From Actinomyces sp. 432 (GTDB lineage: Bacteria; Actinomycetota; Actinomycetes; Actinomycetales; Actinomycetaceae): a DNA stretch of 64,000 bases. Location of the stretch: positions 1,798,001 through 1,862,000 of the forward strand of contig NZ_CP025249.1 in assembly GCF_009930875.1 (NCBI RefSeq), in the 5' to 3' direction. Of this stretch, positions 34,432 through 49,560 are shown in pieces. Numbering within the stretch: the stretch's first letter is position 1; the number at the start of each line of letters is the position of its first letter. The notes under the pieces are model-generated. The model saw only the letters and a list, made by a program, of their open reading frames with translations, ran no database searches and was not told where the DNA came from. The position numbers were made by a program, and so were the translations under genes.

Positions 34432-35082
34432 CTAGCGCTCGGCGACGATCTCCACGCGGCGGTTGGCCGCCCGGCCCTCCTCCGACACGGTGCCGTCCTC
34501 GTTGGTCTCCGCAGCAATTGGCTCGGACTCCCCCTTGCCCTCCGCGGTGATCTCAAGTTCGGGCAGCCGGGCGCTGATATACGTCTTGACCGCCTGGGCT
34601 CGGCGCTCAGACAAGTCCTGGTTATAGGCGTCCTCGTCCACCGAGTCGGTGTGCCCGACAATCGTCACCGTGGCGGGCGGATCATCCTCCCAGTCCTCGA
34701 TGAGCTCGTCGAGTACCTCGTGGGCGCGGTCGGTAAGGTCCGCGGAGTCCGTCTCGAAGTTGATGTCGCTAGACAACGTCGTGGTGGTCCGGTCCCCCCG
34801 CTCCACCACCGAGGCCGCACCGTCCAGGGCCCCGATCGGGGCCTCAATGTCGAAGCTCCGCAACTCGATGGAGTATGCAGGAGCGTCGATGTTCTCCCCG
34901 GCGCCCGGCAAGACCCCGGGGTCGACGTACCGGGTTGCCGTCGCGGGCTCCGTCGCGCTCGGCGTCGCAGAGGCGGCCAGCGCCGTGGGCTGGGAGTTGG
35001 TCGCGACCACCGCTGCTCCCACCAGCATCACGGTCCCCGCCGCGCCCGCGAGCCGGGCGGCATACAGGGCACGGCGGTTCAT
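34432..35082 (-). CDS. OmpA-family peptidoglycan-binding domain protein
   Basis: A 216-residue protein with an N-terminal signal or anchor segment (AGTVMLVGAAVVATNSQPTALAA), a linker of about 90 residues, and a C-terminal OmpA-like domain: FETDSADLTDRAHEVLDEL, TVTIVGHTDSV, and NQDLSERRAQAVKTYI, ending NRRVEIV. That domain binds diaminopimelate-type stem peptides. It is coupled (ATGA) to the upstream Tat lipoprotein, suggesting a shared envelope function. Confidence 0.88.
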   Translation of the reverse strand: MNRRALYAARLAGAAGTVMLVGAAVVATNSQPTALAASATPSATEPATATRYVDPGVLPGAGENIDAPAYSIELRSFDIEAPIGALDGAASVVERGDRTTTTLSSDINFETDSADLTDRAHEVLDELIEDWEDDPPATVTIVGHTDSVDEDAYNQDLSERRAQAVKTYISARLPELEITAEGKGESEPIAAETNEDGTVSEEGRAANRRVEIVAER

Positions 35083-35735
35083 CGCGTCACCGCCACGTCC
35101 GTGAACAGCTGCAGGCCGGGAATTGACACCGTGACAGTCTTCACATTCTCAGGCAGGGGCGCGTACATGTTGTAGTAGATCGCAGTATCACCCGGGCGGA
35201 TCCTGCCGGGCTGGGAGCACAATCGCTCGCCGTCGGTGTTGCGGGCCGTCTCGTAAGTCTTCTGGTTCAGGGAGTCGATGAGCATCACTCCCGAGGTGGT
35301 TCCGGCCCCACCGGGGCTACTGAATTCAGAGCTCATGTAAAGGCCTTCGTGGTCTTCATCATCCGGCGAGAGGCAGGTTACCGAGAAGGTGACAACCGTG
35401 AAGCCCCCGGTAACTGTGACGGCATTGAGGTCCACGCGCGCCGGCTCCTCGGCTGCATACCCGTTGCTCAGCTCCACCTCCTGGGAACCGAGTACGGGCA
35501 GCTCGCCGGTAAAGGGCAGGGCCGTTCCGGCCGCCGAAGCCTGTGCGGCCGCGCCGACGACGTCTGCGCCTGCGGCGTCGGCGTCCTCGCCGTCGTCACG
35601 CCCGGTCAGGCTGCAGGCCGCCAGCACGCCGGCCAGCACTGCGGAGCCGCCCCACGCCAGAAGTCGACGCCGACTGACGCCTGCGGCCGACAGGGACTCC
35701 GGGGTCGGCCTAAACTGTGATGAAGACGTGGACAT
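35079..35735 (-). CDS. Tat-exported lipoprotein, unknown function
   Basis: A 218-residue protein with a twin-arginine signal (VSRRRLLAWGGSAVL) ending in the lipobox LAAC. An Asp/Ala-rich linker follows, then a beta-rich domain with NAVTVTGGFTVVTFSVTCLSPDD and a C-terminal VKTVTVSIPGLQLFTDVAV. No family recognised. ATG 35735 has GAGGAG upstream. It starts an operon with the OmpA-like gene; the two may work together at the cell wall. Confidence 0.8.
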   Translation of the reverse strand: MSTSSSQFRPTPESLSAAGVSRRRLLAWGGSAVLAGVLAACSLTGRDDGEDADAAGADVVGAAAQASAAGTALPFTGELPVLGSQEVELSNGYAAEEPARVDLNAVTVTGGFTVVTFSVTCLSPDDEDHEGLYMSSEFSSPGGAGTTSGVMLIDSLNQKTYETARNTDGERLCSQPGRIRPGDTAIYYNMYAPLPENVKTVTVSIPGLQLFTDVAVTR

Positions 35736-35943
35736 GCGGCAACTCCTCGGGAAGGAAAGTGGCAAGCACCGTATGTGACTGGCGGGCGGAGGCCCGACGC
35801 CTGGGCGAACGACGCGGCACCAAACTTAGTATGCCGGAACGTTATCTTACCGGAGCAGCGGAGTCAACCCGAGTGGATACGCATCGGCGGAACCAATCGC
35901 GCAGAGCGGGTTCGCGTCGGTGCGCCGGGCTAGCGTTGCGGCC

Positions 35944-38235
35944 ATGAACCAGCCCGCCACAAACGCCGCTCCCGCCAGCCCGATCCGCGAGCGCGCCGAG
36001 GCGGTGCTGCGGGACCTGGTCGGCCGGGCGGACGCGCAGTTGCGTACGGACCAGTTGCGCGCCGTCGAGGCGCTGGTGGTGCAGCGCCGGCGCGCGCTAG
36101 TAGTGCAACGCACCGGCTGGGGCAAGTCTGCTGTCTACTTTATAGCAACCGTGTTACTACGCGAGGGTTGGGCCGACTGGCGGCCGGGTACTCCGCTCCC
36201 CGTGGCCGGCGCGGGAGGCTGCCGGAGCAACAGTGATCGTCTCCCCGCTACTAGCACTCATGCGTGATCAAGTTGCAGCCGCGCAGCGCGCCGGTATCAA
36301 CGCCCTGACCATGAACTCGGTCAACGCCCCGCAGTGGCCCGAGATCGAGGCGCAGGTGCAACGCGGCGAGGTCGACTTGCTGCTAGTGTCCCCCGAGCGG
36401 CTCAACCACCCCGTCTTCCGGGAAGAGGTCCTGCCCCGGCTGGCTGCAGACGCCGCCCTGGTGGTGATTGACGAGGCCCACTGCATCTCCGACTGGGGGC
36501 ACGACTTCCGCCCCGACTACCGGCGCATCCGCACCCTGCTGTCGCAGCTGCCGCACAGGACGCCGGTACTGGCCACCACGGCGACGGCCAACGCCCGGGT
36601 CACCGCCGATATCGCCGAGCAGCTGAGCACCGCGTCCCCTGCGGACACTGCCGCGGACGGCACTGCAGCGTCAGCGCCAGGCCGCGACGTGCTGGTACTG
36701 CGCGGCACGCTTGCACGCGATTCCCTGCACCTGGGGGTGCAGCAGCTACCCGATGCCGCTTCCCGCCTGGCGTGGCTGGTCAGCTACCTACAGGGCACGC
36801 CTGGATCCGGGATCGTGTACTGCCTGACGGTCGCAGCGGCCGAAGAGGTAGCCGAGCGATTACGTGACGCAGGCATGGCGGTCTCCGCCTACACGGGGCG
36901 CACGGATTCCGCGGAGCGGGAGCGCCTGGAGGAGGAGCTCAGGGACAACCGGGTAAAGGCGCTGGTGGCCACCAGCGCACTCGGCATGGGCTTCGACAAG
37001 CCGGACTTGGCATTCGTCGTGCACCTGGGGCACCGAGCTCGCCAGTGGCCTACTACCAGCAAGTGGGCCGGGCGGGGCGCGGGGTCGAGCGCGCGGAGGT
37101 GATCCTCCTGCCGGGGGCCGAGGACCGCGCCATTTGGGACTGGTTCGGCGCCCAGGGATTTCCTCCCCCGGATGCGGTCCGGGAGGTTCTGGCAGCGCTG
37201 GACCGGGGCGGCGCGGCGGGCGGACGTCCCGTCAGCACGAACACGCTGGAGGCCGTGGTACCGCTGCGCCGCGCCCGCCTGGAGTCCATGCTCAAGGTCC
37301 TTGACGTTGATGGCGCAGTACAGCGGGTGCCTGGGGGCTGGCAGGCAACCGGGCGTCCCTGGGCCTATGACGCGCCCCGGTATGAGCGGGTCGAGCGGGC
37401 GCGGCGCGCCGAGCAGGAGCTGATGGAGCGTTATGAGTCCTTGTCCGCGCCCGACTGCCGGATGGCCTTTCTTCGCCGGGTACTGGATGATCCGGAGCTG
37501 ACCGCCGACTGGCGGTGCGGCACCTGCGACCTGTGCGGCGGGCTGGACCTGCCGCAGGTACCGGCCGAGCAGGAGGTTTCCGCCGCCCGTCGAGCGATGG
37601 CACGCGTGGGCATTGCGATCGAGCCCCGCAGGCGTTGGCCCGCCGGCATGGACCGCCTGGGCCTCCCCGAGCTCAGGGGCGCTATCGCCGCGGCCGACCG
37701 AGCGGAGCCGGGGCTGGCAGTCGGCCGCCTGGACGGGCTGGGCGTGTCCGCGTCCCTGCGCGATCTGCTGGACTCAGGTGCCGACTCCGAAGTGCCGCCC
37801 TCCCTGCGCACCCCCGTGCTGGAGGTCGCCGACAGGCTCGCCGCCCAGGCGATTTCCGTATCCGGGGAGGGCGACGCGCAGGTCGGTCCGAAGGAGCTGG
37901 CGGTAGTCGTCATTGACTCGCGCACGCGCCCAAGGCTTGTACGCCACCTGGGGCACGCGCTGGCGCATCACCTGGGAGCCGTTCCGCTGGGCGTCATCGG
38001 GGTGCGAGGTGAGCCGGGGCGCCACGACGTCGGCTCCGCCTTCCGGCTGGCGGACAGTGTCCGTTCCCTGACACTGGAGAAATGGCCACCGCGGGTCCTG
38101 GAGCGCTTACACAACCGTCACGTCGTGCTGGTGGATGACTGGACCGACTCCGGCTGGACGCTCACCGTCGGCGCCATGCTGCTGCGGCGGGCGGGGGCGG
38201 CCGGGGTGTACCCCCTGGTGCTAGCGCAGCGCTGA
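35944..38235 (+). CDS. RecQ-family helicase fused to a phosphoribosyltransferase-like domain (frame broken twice)
   Basis: ATP-dependent 3'-5' DNA helicase. Order: Walker A region VVQRTGWGKSAVYFIAT, motif Ia IVSPLLALMRDQ, DEAH box VVIDEAHCISDWGHDFRPDYR, LATTATAN, GIVYCLT, TSALGMGFDKPDLAFVVH, AYYQQVGRAGR, then a zinc-binding CGTCDLC region. The C-terminal 120 residues carry the PRPP-loop-like VVLVDDWTDSGWTLT and a beta-strand pattern of type I phosphoribosyltransferases. Frames break around 36196-36230 (net shift needs one extra or two lost bases) and at GGGG 37027-37030 (one lost G). About 765 residues. Confidence 0.88.
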
Positions 38236-38268: not shown

Positions 38269-39929
38269 TCAGCCGCCGTCCTCGATGCGCGCCGCAGTGA
38301 CCAGGTCTTGCGCCACTGTGCCGGAGTCCGGTCCGGTGCCGCCCGGCCCAGTGGTGCTCGGGGGCTGCCCGGGTGCGGTGGTTTCCGCGGAGACGATCCC
38401 CTCATCCTGGAGGTAGTACCACCACAGCGGCGCGGCCCAGGCGCGCGGCTGCCCCAGCGCGACCGCCGTAAGGTGCTGGGCGACGGCGGACCGGCCCGCT
38501 TCGGCGTCATCGGCTGACCCGAACCACCAGGGTCCCTCGTCGAGGTCTTCAGCGCCGTAGCCCAGTTCGGTCAGCGCCGTCTGCTTGTCCCCCACCACCC
38601 GCCGCAGCGTTTCCATGACGCGCCGGGCGCCGGATCCCAGCGGATGCCACTGCGGGTACACGGACAGCCCAACCACATCAGTCAGCTCCAGCAGCTCCCC
38701 CGCAAGTTGGCTGCGGCCCAGGACAGGACGGACTCCGCGGCCGTGCCCTGACCGAGCTGGTAGTACAGGGTGAGCACGCGCGTGGCTGCGGCAGTGGCGG
38801 GGGTCTCGGCCAGGACTCGCGCAGCGGCAAGCGTCCGCGCAACGGCATCCGGACCGGTCCACTGTGCGGCGAGCTCATTGCCGATCTCCCAGGCGTCGGC
38901 GTCGGGGAAGGTGCCGACCAGAGCCGCCAGCCTCCGCCTCCACGCGTCCTCGGTGTACTCGGCCAGGTCCTGGGAGTCGCAGACCTGCACCATGACGCGG
39001 ACACCAGCGTCATGCAACTCCGTGGCGCACCGCCTCCACTCCGCCAGCTCCGCAGTGTCCTCGGTGTCTGCAACAACGATACGCACCAGCCGGGTCCGGC
39101 CGGCCTCCTCCAGCGGGGCTATCGCCTCGGCCGCCGTACCGGGGTCCGGGGCGGCGGTGAAGGTCACTCCGAGCATGGCGTCCTCGGGCCCGCTGCCCGC
39201 GGCGGCCGCATCAAGGGCCAGTTGGGCGGAGGTCGCCGCCTCCAGCGCATCGTTGGCGAGCGCGGCGCGCTCGACGGGAGTTCCCGCGGCCGCGCACGCG
39301 TCCAGTGCCCGGGAGGTGAGCGCACGCAGCTGGTTGACCGCCTGGGCCGTATCCGCCTCGGCTCCGCTGGTCGGCAGGCTGCGCACCGCATCCGCTTGGG
39401 CGTTGTGCAGGCTGCGCGCCGCTAGCTCGGCCAGGGCGTAGCGTCCGGGCCCCGGCACGTCCACGAGCAGGGCCGAGTAGCCGTGGCTGGTGGGCCAGGA
39501 CAGGTTAAGACAGGCGGGGCCGCCCGCAGGCAGCTCCAGGCAGGCAGTGGACTCCCCGTGCGCTTGCAAGGGGGCGAGCTCGATCAGCTCGAGCGTGTCG
39601 GTATCGAGCAGAGCGTCATCGCGTCCTTCCTCCCCCACCCCGTTGGTCTGCCGCTCAAGCAGCTGACTCAAGGTCATGAGCTCACCATCAGGGGCGGCGA
39701 CGTCGAGCCGCGCCAGGGCGCCCGTGCTGGGCGGCTCCCCTGGCGCGGCCTGCAGCTTTATCAGGGGAAGGGGCGCGAGAGCCAGGCCGACACCTCCCGC
39801 CACGAGCAGGCCCAGGGCCCGCCGCCGGGATACTCTGCGGGGCCGGGCCGGCGCGGGAGGATCGGCAGGCGCCTCGGACGCGGCCACGTCATCCCCCGCC
39901 TGGCTGGAGGCCTCGGAAGCAAGCATCAC
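38269..39929 (-). CDS. Clan-A TIM-barrel glycosidase-like protein (frame broken once)
   Basis: Last gene of the polysaccharide operon, coupled by GTGA (GTG 39929; ATG 39926 possible). A Tat-like signal (VSRRRALGLLVAGGVGLAL) suggests export. After a helical region of about 170 residues, the barrel has DAWEIGNELAAQW, the N-E pair that marks the acid/base in clan GH-A, and TALTELGYGAED, where the Glu could be the nucleophile. The frame slips at a CCCCC run (38697-38701), joining LYYQLGQ...AANL to GELLELTDVVGLSVYPQW. By context it would trim or hydrolyse the exported polymer. Confidence 0.75.
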
Positions 39930-41848
39930 TTCAGCTCCGTTGCGGGCACGAAGGTGTAGCCCTCTGCCCGGATGCCCTCAACGACCTGCTGCAGCAGCGA
40001 CACGTCATAGTAGGGGTGGAAGAAGAAGCTGGCGGTGGCGTGCGTACCCACCAGGTTGGCGCGTGCGGCAGCCACGAGGTCCGCGGGCAGGCGCGGCGGA
40101 TGCTGGTTGTACGCCTCCAATTCCACGTTGCCGAGGTTCTCGGGCAGCACGTGCGTGCCGTACGGGTCATTCACGGCATAGGGGAAGAACTGTCCGAAGT
40201 AGTCGAAGTCCCCTCCGGAGCGGCCGGTGAGCAGGCCGGCGTGCAGGAGCTCGCGCTCGTAGCGCACCTGGTAGACCTTGCCGATGCCGGCGTAGGCCGC
40301 CGCGCTGGCCGCGTAGTGCGGCGTTTCGAACACGGTGGGCTCGGGCAGGCCGACCTGGGTGAAGATGGCTCGGCCCTCGAGCACTTGCGCGGTGGCCCAG
40401 TCCGCGTCGGTGCCCGGCAGGTCACCGCCGATCTGCACCCACGAGTCGTTCTGGCAGGTGACCACCGGCGCGGAGTTGTCGTTGACGGCGCTGCACCAGG
40501 ACCGGATGAACTCGAAGTCATCCGTGCTCACCGCGTTGTAGGGGTTGCTGAGGTTGGAGAACTGGTGGCGGGTGCCGTGCTGAATCAGCGTGCCGCCGTT
40601 GGCGACGGCGTGGTTGAGAACCTCGACCAGCTCCGGGTTGTCAGCCAGGGTGAGGGTCTCCGGTGCGCCGTCGTTGTACACCCCACTGGGGTCGGTGTAC
40701 ACGGGCACCACCGCGATCTGGAAGGGCACGGCCGCGCCGACCAGGTAGTCGACGATCGCGCGCAGCTCCGAGGCCGTCGTTGCGGGGCTTACGTCCTCGA
40801 TGCGTACGGCCGCCTGCCGGACGGTGGCCGCGCCGGGCTGGAGGGTGTCCAGCACGATGTCGGCGGCGGCCAGGTACCGGTCTGTCTCCCCCAGGTAGGA
40901 CAGGGGGACCTCCCCGATGTAGGTGAGGTTCGCGGACTTGACCGCCCACGGGAAGGAGCTGCCTGTCGACTGTGCGACCTGGGCGCAGTCGGTGGCGGCG
41001 CCGGCGGCGTCGGAGCACTGGGCGGAGCCGAGTACCGTGACGTCCTCGGGGGTGGTGATGTGGGGGGCGAGGATTCCGCCCGTATTCAAGGCGTTGCGGC
41101 TCAGGGACTGGCCGTTGTAGGTCACCGAGGTCACCGTATCGGCCGAGTCAATGTAGGAGCCGGCGGCGTCCCACCCGTAGCGGGCGGCGAAGGCGGTGCG
41201 GCCCTCGGCGCCGGCCGCGAGCTGCCAGATGTTGAAACCGGACCACAATACGGGCACGTCACCGGTCAGAACATCGTCGATGAAAGCCTGCGGCAGCGGC
41301 TCATCGTAGGTGGAGCCGGAGTAGATCACGGCGGTGTAGGAGCCGGCCAGGCCAGCGACGTAGTCCGTGACCGGCAGGGTCGTCACCGTACCGGAGTGAG
41401 AGGCCAGCATCCCCATGCCCAGAGCGTAGTACTCGCCGAGATGCGCGTAGGGGCCGGTGGAGTCGAACAGTACGAGCGTACGGGCGGGGCCGGCTTGCTC
41501 GGTGGAGAAGCTGCGGGCTGATTCCGGCAGCGCCACGTCCGCCGGCAGGTCACGCACCTGCGGCTCGGCGGCTGCCTCAACGGGCTGCTCCAGCTCCTCG
41601 GCCTCAGCCTCGCCGGCGAGCACGAGCGGCAGCACCTGCTGCGCGGCCGCCGCCGGCTCCGGAGGCGCCTGGACCGGAGCCTCCTGGGCGACGTCGAGCG
41701 CCGGGGCCTCGGCCGGGACGGCGGCCGGCGGCTCGGCTGCGGTGGCGGGAGCGGACGGGGCGGCGGCAGCCGGCAGCGCGGCCACGACGCCCGCCAGCAC
41801 GATGCCCAGGAGGGCACCGCGGCGTCGTTTCTGAGACGGACGAATCAT
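39926..41848 (-). CDS. DUF2334 polysaccharide deacetylase-like protein, exported
   Basis: A 640-residue protein with a Sec signal (GALLGIVLAGVVAALPAAAA) and an Ala/Pro/Glu-rich linker to about residue 110. An N-terminal domain (RTLVLFDSTGPYAHLGEYYAL) is followed by a NodB-like barrel with RIEDVSPATT (catalytic Asp candidate), LIQHGTRHQ and SFFFHPYYDVSLL (metal-binding histidine candidates). This is the DUF2334 arrangement, related to carbohydrate esterases of family 4. It abuts wecB with no gap and overlaps the glycosidase gene. Role inferred: deacetylation of a hexosamine polymer outside the membrane. Confidence 0.82.
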   Translation of the reverse strand: MIRPSQKRRRGALLGIVLAGVVAALPAAAAPSAPATAAEPPAAVPAEAPALDVAQEAPVQAPPEPAAAAQQVLPLVLAGEAEAEELEQPVEAAAEPQVRDLPADVALPESARSFSTEQAGPARTLVLFDSTGPYAHLGEYYALGMGMLASHSGTVTTLPVTDYVAGLAGSYTAVIYSGSTYDEPLPQAFIDDVLTGDVPVLWSGFNIWQLAAGAEGRTAFAARYGWDAAGSYIDSADTVTSVTYNGQSLSRNALNTGGILAPHITTPEDVTVLGSAQCSDAAGAATDCAQVAQSTGSSFPWAVKSANLTYIGEVPLSYLGETDRYLAAADIVLDTLQPGAATVRQAAVRIEDVSPATTASELRAIVDYLVGAAVPFQIAVVPVYTDPSGVYNDGAPETLTLADNPELVEVLNHAVANGGTLIQHGTRHQFSNLSNPYNAVSTDDFEFIRSWCSAVNDNSAPVVTCQNDSWVQIGGDLPGTDADWATAQVLEGRAIFTQVGLPEPTVFETPHYAASAAAYAGIGKVYQVRYERELLHAGLLTGRSGGDFDYFGQFFPYAVNDPYGTHVLPENLGNVELEAYNQHPPRLPADLVAAARANLVGTHATASFFFHPYYDVSLLQQVVEGIRAEGYTFVPATELK

Positions 41849-43063
41849 TCAGTCCTCCTGCGTGTTGTCAGCGGGGCGGATGGGGTTGAACTCGGGGATG
41901 CGCTCACCTACACCGGTCAGCGCCGCCATGGCGGCAACTGTGCGGGCGCAGGCGTGTCCGTCGCCATAGGGGTTGGCGGCGCTGGCCATCCCGGCATAGG
42001 CGCCGGCGTCGTCCAGCAGGCGTCCCACGGAGTCGACGATGGCCTGCTCGTCGGTGCCTACCAGCTTGGCGACACCGAAGCTGATGGCCTCAGGGCGCTC
42101 GGTGTTCTCGCGCATCACGAGCACCGGCTTGGACAGCGCCGGCGCCTCCTCCTGCACACCGCCGGAGTCCGTAAGCACCAGGTGGGCCCGGTTCATGAGC
42201 GTGCAGAACTGCCCGTACGGCAGCGGCTCGGTGACGACTACGTTGTCCAGGCCCTCGATGTGGGGCAGCAGGGCCGCGCGCACCTTCGGGTTGCGGTGGG
42301 CCGGCAGGACGATCACGTCGGCAGGATGGCTGCGGGCGATACGGGCGACGGCCCGCCCGATGCTGTGCATGGGCTGCCCCCAGGACTCACGGCGGTGCGC
42401 AGTCACCAGTACTATGCGTCGTCCGGGATCGGCGGTAGCTTGTGAGAGCGCGGGGTCGGTGAAGGGCGTCGGCTGTTCCACGGCCTGCAAGAGGGCGTCG
42501 ATGACCGTATTACCGGTGACTACCACCGCGGCAGGGTCGGCGTTCTCCCGCAAAAGGTTATCGCGGGCGACGGTCGTGGGGCACAGGTGCAGCGTGGCTA
42601 TCTGCGAGAGCAGACGCCGGTTGGCCTCCTCAGGGAACGGCGAGGCAATGGATCCTGTGCGCAGGCCCGCCTCTACGTGAGCCACCGGCACGTGGTGGTA
42701 GAAGCCGACCAGCCCGGCCGCGAAGGCGGAGGTGGTGTCACCCTGCGCGGCGAGCAGATGCGGCTGGTACTCCTCAATGGCGCGCTCTACCCCTTCGAGC
42801 GTGCCGACGGTCACCTGGGTGAGGGTCTGGCCCTGGCGGTGGATATTCAGGTCCGTGTCCGGCGTGATGCCGAAGAAGTCATTGACCTGATCGAGCATTT
42901 CTCGGTGCTGACCGGTAACTACCACGATCGGCTCGAAGCGCTCGTCGTGCTGCAGGGCACGCACGAGCGGGGCCATCTTGATGGCCTCCGGCCGCGTGCC
43001 GTATACGAGCATTACCCGTGGCCTCGCGCCGGTGACGGAAGCGGTGGATGCGGCTGCGTTCAT
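41849..43063 (-). CDS. wecB: UDP-N-acetylglucosamine 2-epimerase (non-hydrolysing)
   Basis: Interconverts UDP-GlcNAc and UDP-ManNAc. The 404-residue product has MLVYGTRPEAIKMAPLVRAL at the N-terminus, VVVTGQHREMLDQV, VHVEAGLRTG-type AHVEAGLRTG, and LTDSGGVQEEAPAL with VLVMRENTERPE near the end. All catalytic segments are intact. Its place beside a family-2 glycosyltransferase and a deacetylase implies that the operon needs UDP-ManNAc. Confidence 0.95.
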   Translation of the reverse strand: MNAAASTASVTGARPRVMLVYGTRPEAIKMAPLVRALQHDERFEPIVVVTGQHREMLDQVNDFFGITPDTDLNIHRQGQTLTQVTVGTLEGVERAIEEYQPHLLAAQGDTTSAFAAGLVGFYHHVPVAHVEAGLRTGSIASPFPEEANRRLLSQIATLHLCPTTVARDNLLRENADPAAVVVTGNTVIDALLQAVEQPTPFTDPALSQATADPGRRIVLVTAHRRESWGQPMHSIGRAVARIARSHPADVIVLPAHRNPKVRAALLPHIEGLDNVVVTEPLPYGQFCTLMNRAHLVLTDSGGVQEEAPALSKPVLVMRENTERPEAISFGVAKLVGTDEQAIVDSVGRLLDDAGAYAGMASAANPYGDGHACARTVAAMAALTGVGERIPEFNPIRPADNTQED

Positions 43064-43116
43064 TACACTCCTTAGGTGATTCAGGGACTTGCCCGTAAGT
43101 AAGCGGTACGGGTGCT

Positions 43117-43800
43117 TCAGGGGGTTGCCGGGCTTACGGTGACATCGACCGTCGCGTCTTCGGTGTAGGCAGCTACCGAACCGCGCAGATAGGGGGAATC
43201 GGTGTCTGTTACGGTCACCAGGTCCCGGCCGTCGACAGTAATCACAGCAGTCATTACTCCGGCCGAAGTGGTGTCAATTCTGATTTTCAGTCTATGCGCC
43301 TCACCCACCGCGAATTTAGGCGTGCTGCCAGAGGCCAGGAACTGCTGCTTACCGGGGTAGTCCGGATTCTGCTTGGACACCTCCCACCCGTTGGGCTTGA
43401 GCACCACCGCGTAGAAGTGGTCATTGTCCTGATAGCTCCACAGCAGCCAGGCGACCTCCCACGGATTGGGCGAGCTTCCCCGGCGCAGCTGGGCGCGCGT
43501 GCGCAGTGTCGCCTCCAGGCCCGTCACGCGCCCCTGCGCCACCGAGACGGCGCTTGAGGTGGCCAGGCCGGCATGCGTCTCATCGGGGCGGGTGGCAGGA
43601 GCCGGGCTGAGCCGCACCGTCTGGCCCTCGCAGGCGGCGGTACCGTACCCGTCAAAGACCAGGCGCCAGCTGGAGCAGTTCAGGTTGTCCTCCTTCGCGA
43701 AGCAGACCGCGGTCAGCGTCGCGGCCACCGCGACTACCACCAGCACGGCCACAAGCCTTGCCGCGCGCCCTAGCCGCCTAGGGCCGACTGCCCCGGTCAT
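43117..43800 (-). CDS. Membrane-anchored jelly-roll (concanavalin-like) protein
   Basis: A 227-residue protein. One N-terminal membrane segment (ARLVAVLVVVAVAATLTAVCFA) is followed by an outside domain with LEATLRTRAQ, WEVAWLLWSYQDNDHFYAVVLKPNGWEVSKQ and HRLKIRID. This beta-sandwich pattern is typical of LamG/3-keto-glucoside-hydrolase-like domains that bind or cleave sugars. ATG 43800 overlaps the glycosyltransferase stop by 4 bp. It may hold or guide the polymer leaving the synthase. Confidence 0.78.
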   Translation of the reverse strand: MTGAVGPRRLGRAARLVAVLVVVAVAATLTAVCFAKEDNLNCSSWRLVFDGYGTAACEGQTVRLSPAPATRPDETHAGLATSSAVSVAQGRVTGLEATLRTRAQLRRGSSPNPWEVAWLLWSYQDNDHFYAVVLKPNGWEVSKQNPDYPGKQQFLASGSTPKFAVGEAHRLKIRIDTTSAGVMTAVITVDGRDLVTVTDTDSPYLRGSVAAYTEDATVDVTVSPATP

Positions 43801-45164
43801 GCCCCTGCCTCCGCAGCGGCCTGGCCGACGAGGGCACCTGGAGCGCGGGCCGCCTCGCGGGCGGTCTTGGCCCAGCCCGAGCGGCCGACGAGCTCGCGTG
43901 CGAGCGCACGCCACCCGTAGATACCGGACAGCAGACCGTAAACCACAAACACGTGGCACCAGGCTATGCACCGCAAGGGCCCCGTCCCCTCCTGCCGGAC
44001 TCGGCGCCAGTACACGAGGGCGTACAGATATGACGGCCCGAAGGCGAGCAGATAGGCACTCGGCGCCCACGCCCACGACTGCGGCACGCCCCAGGCGAGG
44101 TTCATGCCGAAGAGGACCAGCATCAGCAGGAAGGACGCCGGCAGCAGGGATCCAGCAAGCAGGAGGTACGGGCTCAGAACCTGCCAGAGCGTATCCGCGC
44201 GCGCACGTCCGCGCAGCTCGCGGGCTACAAACCCCAGCAGTGCGCGCGCCTGCAGATTGCCTTGGAACCAACGCGTGCGCTGGCGCACAAGCCGCCGCAG
44301 GGAGGTCACACCCTCCTGATGTACCGCGGCCTCGCCCCGGTACTCGTTGACCCACCGGGTGCCGTTGAGCCGGATTCCCAGGTCGAAGTCCTCGGTCAGG
44401 GAACGCGTCCAGGGCTTGGTACCCAGCGCGTCGAGCGCGGAGAGCCGCACGAATTGGGCGTTACCGCCCATGCCCACACTGCCGAGGCGGCGGCGCCCCT
44501 GCTGATATATCGCGGTGAAGGTCACGAACTCGATGTCCTGCATACGGGCCAGCAGGGAGGCACTACGATTGGAGATGCGTACTCCGAGCTGGACCGCCCC
44601 GATGTCCCTCGTCGCGAAGGCGTCGCGCAGGATCTGCCAGGCCGAGGGATCCAGGTGACCGTCGGCGTCTACCACGCCGACGATGACCTGCTCGGGGTCC
44701 AGCTCCCGGTATCGCTCTCGCACTACGGTCACAGCCTGGTTCAGGGCTTCACCCTTACCCTGCCGGGCGTCAGGGGGATCGCGGCGCAGTAGGGCGACAC
44801 GTGGATCATCGAGCGCACGGACAATCTCACTCGTGGCGTCGTCGGAGCCGTCGTCGATGACCAGGACCGACAACTCGGGACTGGGATCGGTCAGGAGCCG
44901 ACTCACTGAGGGACCGATTACGGACTCCTCGTTGAGGCAGGGCATCAGGACCACGATTTGCAGCGCCCGCACGTCGGCGTCCTTTGCCGAGCGGGAGGAG
45001 GCGTCCACGCGGGCGCCACCTCGGGCCGCGCTACGTGCAGCGCCCGTGAGAAATAGTAGATAGCTCAATGCCACTACCACCATCGCAAGGGCGCTAAGAG
45101 AGCCAACCAAGTCCAGGTTACGCAGCAGGTCCCCGGCGTACACGGGCATATAAATCCGGGTCAT
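43797..45164 (-). CDS. Membrane-bound processive family-2 glycosyltransferase
   Basis: A 455-residue synthase. One N-terminal membrane segment (LSALAMVVVALSYLLFL) is followed by a cytoplasmic GT-A domain with VVLMPCLNEE, VIDDGSDDAT, VGVVDADGHLDP (DxD), GGNAQFVRL, LTEDFDLGIRL (TED) and QRTRWFQGN (the Q-x-x-R-W signature of processive enzymes such as cellulose, hyaluronan and PNAG synthases). Three or four membrane segments follow. ATG 45164 lies 4 bp after the stop of a small membrane ORF. Confidence 0.9.
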   Translation of the reverse strand: MTRIYMPVYAGDLLRNLDLVGSLSALAMVVVALSYLLFLTGAARSAARGGARVDASSRSAKDADVRALQIVVLMPCLNEESVIGPSVSRLLTDPSPELSVLVIDDGSDDATSEIVRALDDPRVALLRRDPPDARQGKGEALNQAVTVVRERYRELDPEQVIVGVVDADGHLDPSAWQILRDAFATRDIGAVQLGVRISNRSASLLARMQDIEFVTFTAIYQQGRRRLGSVGMGGNAQFVRLSALDALGTKPWTRSLTEDFDLGIRLNGTRWVNEYRGEAAVHQEGVTSLRRLVRQRTRWFQGNLQARALLGFVARELRGRARADTLWQVLSPYLLLAGSLLPASFLLMLVLFGMNLAWGVPQSWAWAPSAYLLAFGPSYLYALVYWRRVRQEGTGPLRCIAWCHVFVVYGLLSGIYGWRALARELVGRSGWAKTAREAARAPGALVGQAAAEAGA

Positions 45165-45168
45165 ACGC

Positions 45169-45429
45169 CTACACCGCCGCTTCCAGAGGGAGCCCGCTCG
45201 GCAGACAGCAGCGCCTCCGGGCCCGAGGCACCGCCCCCGACCGCAGGGCGCCGGCCGCCGCAGCGGACCCGCACGCCCCATAGGTATTCAGCGCCAGGAA
45301 GAGCAGGGCGATCAGAAGAAATCCGAAGCCCGCCGAATCAAGCAAGACACGGGCTACAGTCTCTAACCAGCCAGTGACTACGCCGGAATCCGATTGGCCG
45401 AGAACGGCCAGGGACAATGAGTACTGCAT
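45169..45429 (-). CDS. Small putative membrane protein heading the polysaccharide operon
   Basis: An 86-residue ORF starting MQYSLSLAVLG, with one strong membrane segment (SAGFGFLLIALLFLALNTYGA) and an Arg/Cys-rich tail. It ends 4 bp before the glycosyltransferase start. No family recognised and the RBS is weak, so it may be a real small accessory protein of the synthase or a chance ORF. The 231 bp upstream (45430-45660) are AT-rich for this genome (with a TTGAC/GTCAA pair at 45621-45644) and probably hold the operon promoter. Confidence 0.4.
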   Translation of the reverse strand: MQYSLSLAVLGQSDSGVVTGWLETVARVLLDSAGFGFLLIALLFLALNTYGACGSAAAAGALRSGAVPRARRRCCLPSGLPLEAAV

Positions 45430-47028: not shown

Positions 47029-49418
47029 CTACCGGCTCCGGTAGCGACGAGTGCGCGCGTCATTAATGGCCCCGGCCCAGTTCAGGCCGTAGCCGAAGCG
47101 GTAAGCGTTACCGGCTGAGTCGGTGTAGGCCGCGTAGTCGAAGGGCAGGTCCTCGCAATGCGCCTCCACCGCATCCATCGACGCCGGCAACGTGATCGGC
47201 AGCAGGCCGCTGGGCTCGTACTCCCCGGCAAGCAGCTCCCAGACCACCGACTGCTGTACGCCGAAGTCGACGACAATCGCGTCTGCGTGGGGCTCCAGCT
47301 CGGCCAGCACGGCCGGGTTGTGCATACGCACCACCACGATCACGGGCCGGTCCCCCATCAGCTCCCGGGCGGCAAGGACCGCATCGAGGTCGGTTTCATT
47401 GGCGACCCGGTTGGTCTTGCCGCGATAGGCCCGGTCCCCGGTCTCCCGGAAGTCGCCCGCCGCCAGGGAGCGGGCACGGGCCGTGGCAGCGGTGTAGGGG
47501 CGGTACTGGAGCGTCAGCGGCAAGTAACCATTGCCGCCGGCCTCGCGGTCGGCCGTCGAATAGGGATTGGACAGGGGCGACTCGATGAAGACGACGGCGG
47601 CGTCGGCGTCCTGGGGGTCCGTAACCCGCTCGTAGGGGCAGGCGGCGGCGTCAAGGGGATCGATGTCGCGCGCGGGTTCACCGCCGCGCATGAAGCCGGG
47701 TTGAGCGTCCACGTGTCGGATGGGAACCCACACGCGCCGCACATCGGCCCCGAGCGGCAGGACGGCGGTACCGGCGGCACGGTGGTTCTTGAGCAGGACC
47801 AGGCTGTCACGCTGAGCGGCGCACGCCGCGGTGGCAAAGGCCTCGCAGCCGACGACCGCGCTGGAGTCAGCGGGATCCAGGTACGGGTTCTCGAACAGGC
47901 CCGCCCGGAAGAGCACCCGCAGCAGGCGGGCGGCCGAGGCCTCGAAACGGGCACGCGCCGCAGCCTCGCCGTCGCGAAGGGCCAGGCGCCGGTACGCCTC
48001 GATGATCGGCGCGCAGTCGCTGTTGCCGCCGAACTGGTCCACACCGTTGTCAAGGGCCAGCAGGTGGCGGTCGGCCACGTCCAGGTCCTCCACGCCGTAG
48101 CAGCGCTGGCCGAAGTGATCGATCTCAGGATCGGGATCGGCGGTGATGCCCCAGTCGGTGCACACCACCCCGTCGAAGCCGGATCGCTCGCGCAGCATGT
48201 CGTGGACGATTGCCCGGTGGTAGGAGTTGGCGCGCGGTGTTGAGTCGCCGCCGGTATTGACCACCCGCCCGTCCGGGGTGCGGTAGTGCCAGGCGATCGT
48301 GTAGTAGGGCATGACGGCGCCGGCGCAGCCCGTGGGCCCGTGCAGGTGGAAGGCGGCCTCGAAGGCACGCAGGTGCTCCGCCTCATTGCCGCCGGGATAC
48401 ACCGCGAACTTGCCGAAGCCGTAGTGGGCGTCGCGGCCGCCCTCCCCAGTACCGCCGCCGGGCCAGTGCTTGACCATGGCGGACACCGAGGCGCTGCCCC
48501 AGCCGGGGTCGCTGGCGGCCGCGGCTACCGCCGGCAGTTCGGCGTCGGCCGGGGTACCCGTCATGCCGAATGCGGCACCGTCCCCACTCGTCGGTGTGGT
48601 CTGCATACCGTCGCAGTAGGCCCGGGCGTAATCGGCCACCAGGCCCGAATGCGGACCCCAGGTGTCCTGCAGGCGCATCCAACGCGGGTCGGTGGCGATG
48701 TCAATCTGCGGACCCAGCGCGGTGGTGATACCCAGGGCGCGGTACTCGCGGGAGATGATTGCGGCGTACTGGCGCACTCGCTCGGGATCGAACAGTGCCG
48801 CCATACCCAGTCCCTCCGGCCAGCGGGAGACGTCGGCGGCCAAGGTGGCGAACTCGGCGCCGGAGGTATCGGCCGCACCGTTGCGGGGATCGCTGGAGGT
48901 ATTCACCGGCACGCCCAGCGGCTCGGACTCCGCGAGGGCCTGCAGGGCGTTGTTCCAGCGGGCGGCCGTGCCCGCGTCCTGGAGGGTGAAGGCCAGGACG
49001 TGACGGATATGATCGGCGGTGAGCATGGCGCGCTGCTGATCGGTCAGCGCCCAGGCGGGCGCTCCCGCCTCCTGGCGGGTGCGCCCGCCGTAGCTGCCGG
49101 CGAAGGGTCCGACTCCCGGATTGGGAACGGGCTGGTGGGGCGAGTAGAGCATCAGCCCCGCGATTGCCTCGAGGCTCATCCTGGAGGCGAGGTCGGCGGC
49201 GCGCTCCGCGGCGGGAAGCCGCCAGTCCTCGTAGGGCAGTAGCGCTCCGGTGCGGGCCAGGTCCTTGAACAGGTGGCCGTCGGCCTCGAGTATGGGGGCT
49301 GAGGTGGTTCCCAGGGTGGGGCCATCCGGTTGCGGGTGCAGCGTGAACACGGGCTCGGCGTAGTCGCCGGCTGCGGATGGAGCAGGGCTGGATTCGGGGC
49401 TGCGTTCACGGGATTCAC
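47029..49418 (-). CDS. Glycoside hydrolase family 3 protein (frame broken near 5' end)
   Basis: About 800 residues with both GH3 domains. KHWPGGGTGEGGRDAHYG is the family KH(F/W)PG motif, and GFDGVVCTDWGI carries the nucleophile Asp. The C-terminal domain has SLVLLKNHRAAGTAVLPL and QQSVVWELLAGEYEPSGLLPITLP. I place the start at GTG 49418 because GAAGGAG lies just upstream and the frame reads NPVNAAPNPALLHPQP. It joins GDYAEPVFTLHPQPDG only if one base is added at a CC run near 49367. It lies 9 bp upstream of hisD. Substrate probably a beta-glucoside or xyloside; unproven. Confidence 0.85.
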
Positions 49419-49560
49419 TGTGGCTCCTTCGCTGCACGGCCGCACGGCAGCGGCCGTGCGGAACAAGCATCGCACGGACGGGGCACATGAGCGGGGCGAT
49501 CACCAGGGGACATGCGCGGGATGGCCGCCACCGGTACAGGCGCGAGCAGCTGCTTCGGCC

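Follow-up and report, generated by a model that had tools for sequence, protein, structure and literature searches.

Related exopolysaccharide systems

Actinomyces species help to build dental plaque in its early stages. The window analysed here, a stretch of 64,000 nucleotides from Actinomyces sp. 432, contains a six-gene operon that probably makes a surface exopolysaccharide based on N-acetylmannosamine (ManNAc) in a synthase-dependent manner, in a monoderm, with tailoring by a deacetylase-like protein and a glycosidase. The described systems that resemble it are the NGR glycan of Escherichia coli, Pss of Listeria, ydaJKLMN of Bacillus subtilis and poly-N-acetylglucosamine (PNAG).

The E. 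coli nfrA, nfrB and wecB genes are required for phage N4, a ManNAc polymer has been proposed as their product, and NGR is linked to cyclic di-GMP (c-di-GMP); NfrB has also been reported in rare Gram-positives such as Eggerthella, without NfrA (PMC8669469, PMC8669472). The accessible excerpts of these two papers mention neither DUF2334 nor a PgaC-like synthase. The window operon shares with NGR (N4 glycan receptor; NfrB-NfrA-YbcH plus WecB) a family 2 glycosyltransferase (GT2) with DxD, TED and QxxRW motifs, a WecB and a proposed ManNAc polymer, and relatives of its DUF2334 protein and glycosidase lie near NfrB and NfrA in diderms. It differs in that its synthase is of another lineage (18 bits to NfrB) and has no match to the c-di-GMP domain MshEN, no NfrA is found among the six genes, the genus has no GGDEF proteins, and the glycosidase does not align with YbcH, which served as a single-sequence template. 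The E. coli nfrBA-ybcH locus has no DUF2334 gene, and the E. coli control genome gave no match to PF10096, the DUF2334 model.

Pss belongs to a Gram-positive and is described as a beta-1,4 ManNAc polymer with a deacetylase, PssB, and its own hydrolase (PMC11439720, PMC6307706). The first-pass annotation had named Pss as a parallel; the logic agrees but the hydrolase does not, PssZ being a GH126 enzyme (PMC7479077) of an (alpha/alpha)6 family (PMC13363691) and not a clan-A barrel. A further difference is the galactose side chain of the Pss polymer. We take PssB to be a DUF2334 protein and know of no WecB in the Listeria pss operon, and Pss is reportedly regulated by c-di-GMP, judging by the title of a 2015 study by Koseoglu et al.

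The B. subtilis control genome matches PF10096, and YdaM and YdaL are presumably a GT2 and a DUF2334 protein, respectively. The ydaJKLMN operon has five genes, among them one for a putative glycosyl hydrolase, and is associated with an uncharacterised exopolysaccharide (PMC13274460). It differs from the window operon in its link to c-di-GMP through the receptor YdaK, in SigB control and in lectin data that point toward alpha-Gal or N-acetylgalactosamine (GalNAc).

PNAG systems (PgaABCD, IcaADBC) follow the same logic of synthase, deacetylase and hydrolase, and PgaC is the nearest of the three characterised synthases compared. In contrast, PNAG is a polymer of N-acetylglucosamine (GlcNAc) made without WecB, and its deacetylase could not be aligned with DUF2334 in what is a weak test. 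In how it works the window operon resembles NGR and Listeria Pss, but judged on the defining features that were tested it belongs to none of the NGR, Pss and PNAG systems. No paper joining DUF2334 with an exopolysaccharide was found, and among the literature matches listed (titles and abstract starts) there was none on a ManNAc exopolysaccharide or on this gene set in Actinomyces.

Organization and conservation of the operon

The six genes lie on the minus strand and span 38269-45429, where the first-pass annotation had placed them, in a host that it rightly took to be Actinomyces-like.

45169-45429, minus strand: small membrane open reading frame (ORF), first gene; 86 amino acids (aa), one predicted helix (residues 28-46); possible synthase partner
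43797-45164, minus strand: putative processive GT2 polysaccharide synthase, PgaC-like; 455 aa, with DxD, TED and QxxRW
43117-43800, minus strand: membrane-anchored jelly-roll protein; 227 aa, CBM66-like fold
41849-43063, minus strand: WecB, non-hydrolysing UDP-GlcNAc 2-epimerase (TIGR00236)
39926-41848, minus strand: DUF2334 protein, deacetylase-like; 640 aa, PF10096 at residues 345-625, N-terminal hydrophobic leader
38682-39929, minus strand: predicted clan-A glycosidase, N-terminal piece; Tat-like leader, N-domain, and barrel to and past the acid/base Glu
38269-38721, minus strand: C-terminal piece of the predicted clan-A glycosidase, in a different frame; region of the nucleophile Glu (start of the mechanical ORF at 38862)

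Of 24 other genomes in the genus, 14 carry the GT2 gene at an E-value of 1e-40 or better, and in all 14 the GT2, jelly-roll, WecB, DUF2334 and glycosidase genes stand in identical order, which is more than chance. The recurrent operon proposed in the first pass is thus confirmed, and its homologues are found together in the neighbourhood survey, not scattered. Named genomes with the cluster include A. oris, A. naeslundii, A. johnsonii, A. bowdenii, A. timonensis, A. denticolens, A. gaoshouyii, A. ruminicola, A. ruminis and A. glycerinitolerans. Some same-genus loci were left out of the alignments (L015 and L020 from A1 and A4; L015, L017 and L020 from A2; L020 and L024 from A3).

The genes are tightly coupled, as had been noted: neighbours overlap, abut or lie a few bases apart, except for the jelly-roll gene and WecB, which are separated by 53 bp. 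The ATG of the jelly-roll gene overlaps the GT2 end, and the glycosidase start (39929) overlaps the DUF2334 stop. In each of 13 relatives examined, a helix-bearing ORF runs up to the GT2 start or stops shortly ahead of it (a count without a chance control, and excluding L024, in which the GT2 shifts frame near its end). The mechanical length of this ORF is 80-131 aa in 11 relatives and 228-229 aa in L025 and L026; by tblastn, the small ORF was detected in 4 of 19 loci. A scan for promoters and terminators gave 1 promoter-like site (0.5 in shuffled sequence) and 3 terminator-like sites (1.9 in shuffled sequence), and was not used.

The hisD gene is upstream of the GT2 in 12 of the 14 loci and beyond the glycosidase in L025 and L026. 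A GH3 glycosidase gene (47029-49503, minus strand) lies directly beyond hisD in the window, and adjoins hisD in L013-L015 among the 14 loci. On the other side of the operon, 34432-35082 (minus strand) encodes an OmpA-family (PF00691) domain protein in this monoderm and adjoins a gene at 35079-35765 whose product has, by eye, a Tat-like lipoprotein leader.

Control by c-di-GMP was rejected, since none of 25 same-genus genomes, own included, has a GGDEF match; the same search found GGDEF in 10 of 14 other genomes of the order. The operon must be controlled in some other way.

The synthase and the sugar

The GT2 appears to be a processive-type synthase, judging from its motifs and membrane helices. 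DxD, TED and QxxRW are invariant in 14 of 14 copies, in agreement with the processive QxxRW enzyme first proposed; the window protein has three hydropathy peaks, and Pfam finds GT2 domains only. Its NCBIfam scores all fall below cut-off, the best being an XrtP-associated glycosyltransferase (NF053846, 284 bits, cut-off 520) and the second PgaC/IcaA (TIGR03937, 91 bits, cut-off 422), followed by NodC (35 bits) and a polyprenyl-phospho-GalNAc synthase model (20 bits). By these scores, taken without a GT2 tree, it does not group with non-processive enzymes. The GT2 profile scored 106 bits against PgaC, 30 against BcsA and 18 against NfrB, and blastp gave 26% identity to PgaC within residues 70-361 only and no match to NfrB at E 1. 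In the structure library, the profile reached chondroitin synthase and other GT2 chains at no more than 32 bits. An exosortase link, hinted at by the XrtP model name, was rejected, as the genome has no PF09721 match. A reverse search from the GT2, viewing about 1.5 kb of flank per match, covered 198 genomes of the order and gave 21 matches, 13 of them (own included) with WecB and 8 without; the GT2 family thus extends beyond this operon.

WecB scores 446 bits to TIGR00236 (cut-off 210) and is 51% identical to E. coli WecB over 369 aa. Its neighbourhood was surveyed in 79 DUF2334 loci. These were taken from the best 80 of 119 matches confirmed after a two-word pattern scan of contigs with the DUF2334 alignment alone, which biases the sample toward close relatives; neighbours were counted up to 8 kb from DUF2334 at an E-value of 1e-10. 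WecB is a neighbour in 66 of the 79 loci, or in 50 of 63 without L032-L047 (Actinomyces plus one Actinomycetaceae). Epimerase_2 has 55 matches in 39 relatives, about 1 per 2.3 Mb, and by our estimate a chance neighbour this near would be expected in about 1% of loci. The pull of WecB toward a ManNAc polymer, on which the first pass had relied, is stronger because of this proximity and because DUF2334 relatives lie near NfrB and NfrA in diderms. A polymer of N-acetylmannosaminuronic acid was rejected, since E. coli WecC has no match in the window and one near just 1 of the 79 loci.

In the proposed pathway, WecB would convert UDP-GlcNAc to UDP-ManNAc, and the GT2, probably partnered by the small membrane protein, would polymerise UDP-ManNAc and thread the chain across the single membrane. 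The CBM66-like anchored protein may hold or guide the chain outside the cell, the DUF2334 protein may deacetylate some of the residues, and the clan-A glycosidase, once exported, may cut or trim the chain.

GlmS-like (SIS domain) genes stand beside two distant clusters among the 79 loci (L055, 4821-6017; L090, 6953-8800), fitting a local supply of amino sugar.

DUF2334 loci and their two synthase types

The DUF2334 loci cover four phyla and are linked to two types of synthase. A window-type (PgaC-like) GT2 is present in 51 loci, all in Actinomycetota (the call is weak, at 35%, in L069 and L087), and an NfrB-type in 20, all in diderms (9 Myxococcota, 9 Pseudomonadota and 2 Acidobacteriota). No locus has both, and the 8 with neither are Actinomycetota. 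NfrA-like genes are near 16 of the 20 NfrB loci and none of the 51 window-type loci. The jelly-roll gene is near DUF2334 in 22 loci, 21 with the window-type GT2 and none with NfrB, and the glycosidase in 23, 17 with the window-type GT2 and 5 with NfrB. In Nitrosomonas sp. Nm84, genes for DUF2334, WecB, a GT2 and a TPR/NfrA_C protein share one strand, with a GlmS-like gene before them and a glycosidase after them on the opposite strand. The Nitrosomonas and Hyalangium GT2s are NfrB homologues (38%), scoring 399 and 310 bits. Over 517 aa, the DUF2334 protein of Nitrosomonas shares 44% identity with that of the window.

In a tree of 46 DUF2334 sequences, picked by the author for spread with the long-branched L059_0 omitted, 4 switches of synthase label are needed (range in bootstraps 4-4), and the starred branches force 4. 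A single clade for the NfrB-linked rows, a group defined before this tree and after a quick tree had been seen, is rejected (log-likelihood 115.9 lower, p-AU 5e-92). The quick tree, larger at 74 of 84 sequences with 10 Actinomyces rows thinned out, also gives 4 changes, 3 of them forced by starred branches. As the synthase label tracks phylum and envelope, either the DUF2334/WecB pair moved between lineages to the local synthase or synthases were replaced; the tree fits both.

The DUF2334, jelly-roll and glycosidase proteins

The DUF2334 protein scores 146 bits to PF10096 (cut-off 26), and its presumed catalytic residues D352, H424, H428 and H611 are kept in 84, 83, 84 and 84 of 84 sequences. 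A PgaB/IcaB-type deacetylase was rejected on an hhalign probability of 0.1% for the 84-sequence profile against PgaB, a weak test with a single-sequence template. A second well-conserved region (residues about 120-345) lies N-terminal to the domain and has no Pfam match. Two adjacent DUF2334 genes occur in L076, L098, L109 and L059 (Nitrosomonas communis, Planobispora, Planomonospora, Herbihabitans).

The jelly-roll protein has the fold of a CBM66-like module. At E 1, no Pfam model matched this protein, the small ORF or the glycosidase pieces, and by sequence the jelly-roll, DUF2334 and glycosidase profiles found nothing credible in the structure library.

The glycosidase is a predicted clan-A glycoside hydrolase, as judged from the modelled fold and Glu residues of unbroken relatives. 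The model of the L013 copy is a (beta/alpha)8 barrel with Glu at the ends of strands 4 and 7 (strands counted by the author) and matches GH53, GH1 and GH164 folds; E354 and E457 are kept in 22 of 22 sequences. The window pieces and the L055 and L090 copies have no Pfam match, and the window pieces no NCBIfam match, that would place them in a curated family. Homology to YbcH was rejected on an hhalign probability of 0.9%, again in a weak test with a single-sequence template. The barrel and the two Glu agree with the clan-A assignment of the first pass. The window copy is not a single ORF but is split over two frames (38682-39929, then a piece ending at 38269), a break that the first pass missed, as it did the link with the E. 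coli NfrB/NGR gene set and the lack of GGDEF enzymes. Among the 14 same-genus loci, 13 have an unbroken reading frame for this gene, L015 being the exception. A recQ-like neighbour (35920-38235, plus strand) is also in pieces across frames here, with one open frame in L014, L016 and L019. Because this unrelated gene is broken too, indel errors in the assembly are the likeliest, though not proven, cause of the glycosidase break.

Alternative explanations

Several points weigh against a tailored ManNAc polymer. The GT2 is nearer PgaC, a GlcNAc polymerase, than BcsA or NfrB, so the sugar assignment rests on context, and the window genome has two further Epimerase_2 genes. GT2 relatives outside the genus often lack DUF2334 (0 of 5 loci have it, L027 and L028 being short contigs). 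A synthase is missing within 8 kb of DUF2334 in 8 loci, and WecB in 13. Six of the 8 synthase-less loci are on contigs shorter than 14 kb, and L063 and L103 on contigs longer than 20 kb; 6 of the 8 form one supported tree subgroup with L069 and L087, so that a truly unlinked subgroup is likely. This Micromonosporaceae-type subgroup of 8 rows (6 without a synthase, 2 with the weak GT2 only, and no WecB) perhaps acts on another substrate; its members, mostly Micromonosporaceae, are L051, L058, L063, L068, L069, L087, L103 and L105. DUF2334 also has no detectable sequence match to PgaB, on the weak test above, and the glycosidase of the window strain may be dead. The operon might even be decaying in this strain, its gene set no longer trimming a polymer, as the breaks in the glycosidase and the adjoining recQ and the likewise broken L015 glycosidase would allow. 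This has little likelihood, given that the remaining five genes are open, that the 13 relatives keep the glycosidase unbroken, and that the open recQ of other loci points to assembly indels.

A polymer of the PNAG kind, with UDP-GlcNAc as the substrate of the PgaC-like synthase and WecB meeting some minor or separate need, would account for PgaC being the nearest synthase by blastp and profile and for the second rank of the PgaC/IcaA model. It is nonetheless unlikely, as that model scores far below its cut-off, the similarity covers only part of the protein, WecB accompanies most DUF2334 loci, and DUF2334 and PgaB do not align (weakly tested). Even less probable is a wall- or protein-linked glycan built on a lipid carrier, such as GspA glycosylation. 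It has a precedent in Actinomyces oris, where the LCP enzyme LcpA is described as mediating glycosylation of a wall-anchored protein (PMC6381275), and one of the distant clusters (L055) has an LCP gene close by. Against it, LCP matches occur near only 2 of 79 loci, the operon has a QxxRW synthase and neither a flippase nor a Wzy among its genes, and E. coli WecA has no match near any of the 79 loci or in the window, other initiator families not having been sought. The ManNAc polymer is thus the reading preferred here.

Biological implications

What is new is the way the genes are combined, together with the unclassified glycosidase and the swapping of synthases around the WecB-DUF2334 pair. 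On a broader scale, chances seem even that WecB and DUF2334, with the unclassified clan-A glycosidase in part of the loci, form a portable kit for tailoring ManNAc polymers, repeatedly coupled to two distant synthase lineages according to the envelope: NfrB with NfrA in diderms, and the PgaC-like GT2, often with a CBM66-like anchor, in Actinomycetota. From the gene set one would predict ManNAc as the sugar, a cationic charge through partial deacetylation, and two potential polymer-dispersing enzymes. The gene set also ties the chemically undefined E. coli NGR glycan to an enzyme kit found in four phyla, so that the composition of NGR can be tested with single purified enzymes. If the proposal of a portable kit is true, the Actinomyces of dental plaque produce a partly deacetylated poly-ManNAc that is NGR-like but free of c-di-GMP control, and the glycosidase would found a new family of ManNAc-polymer hydrolases.

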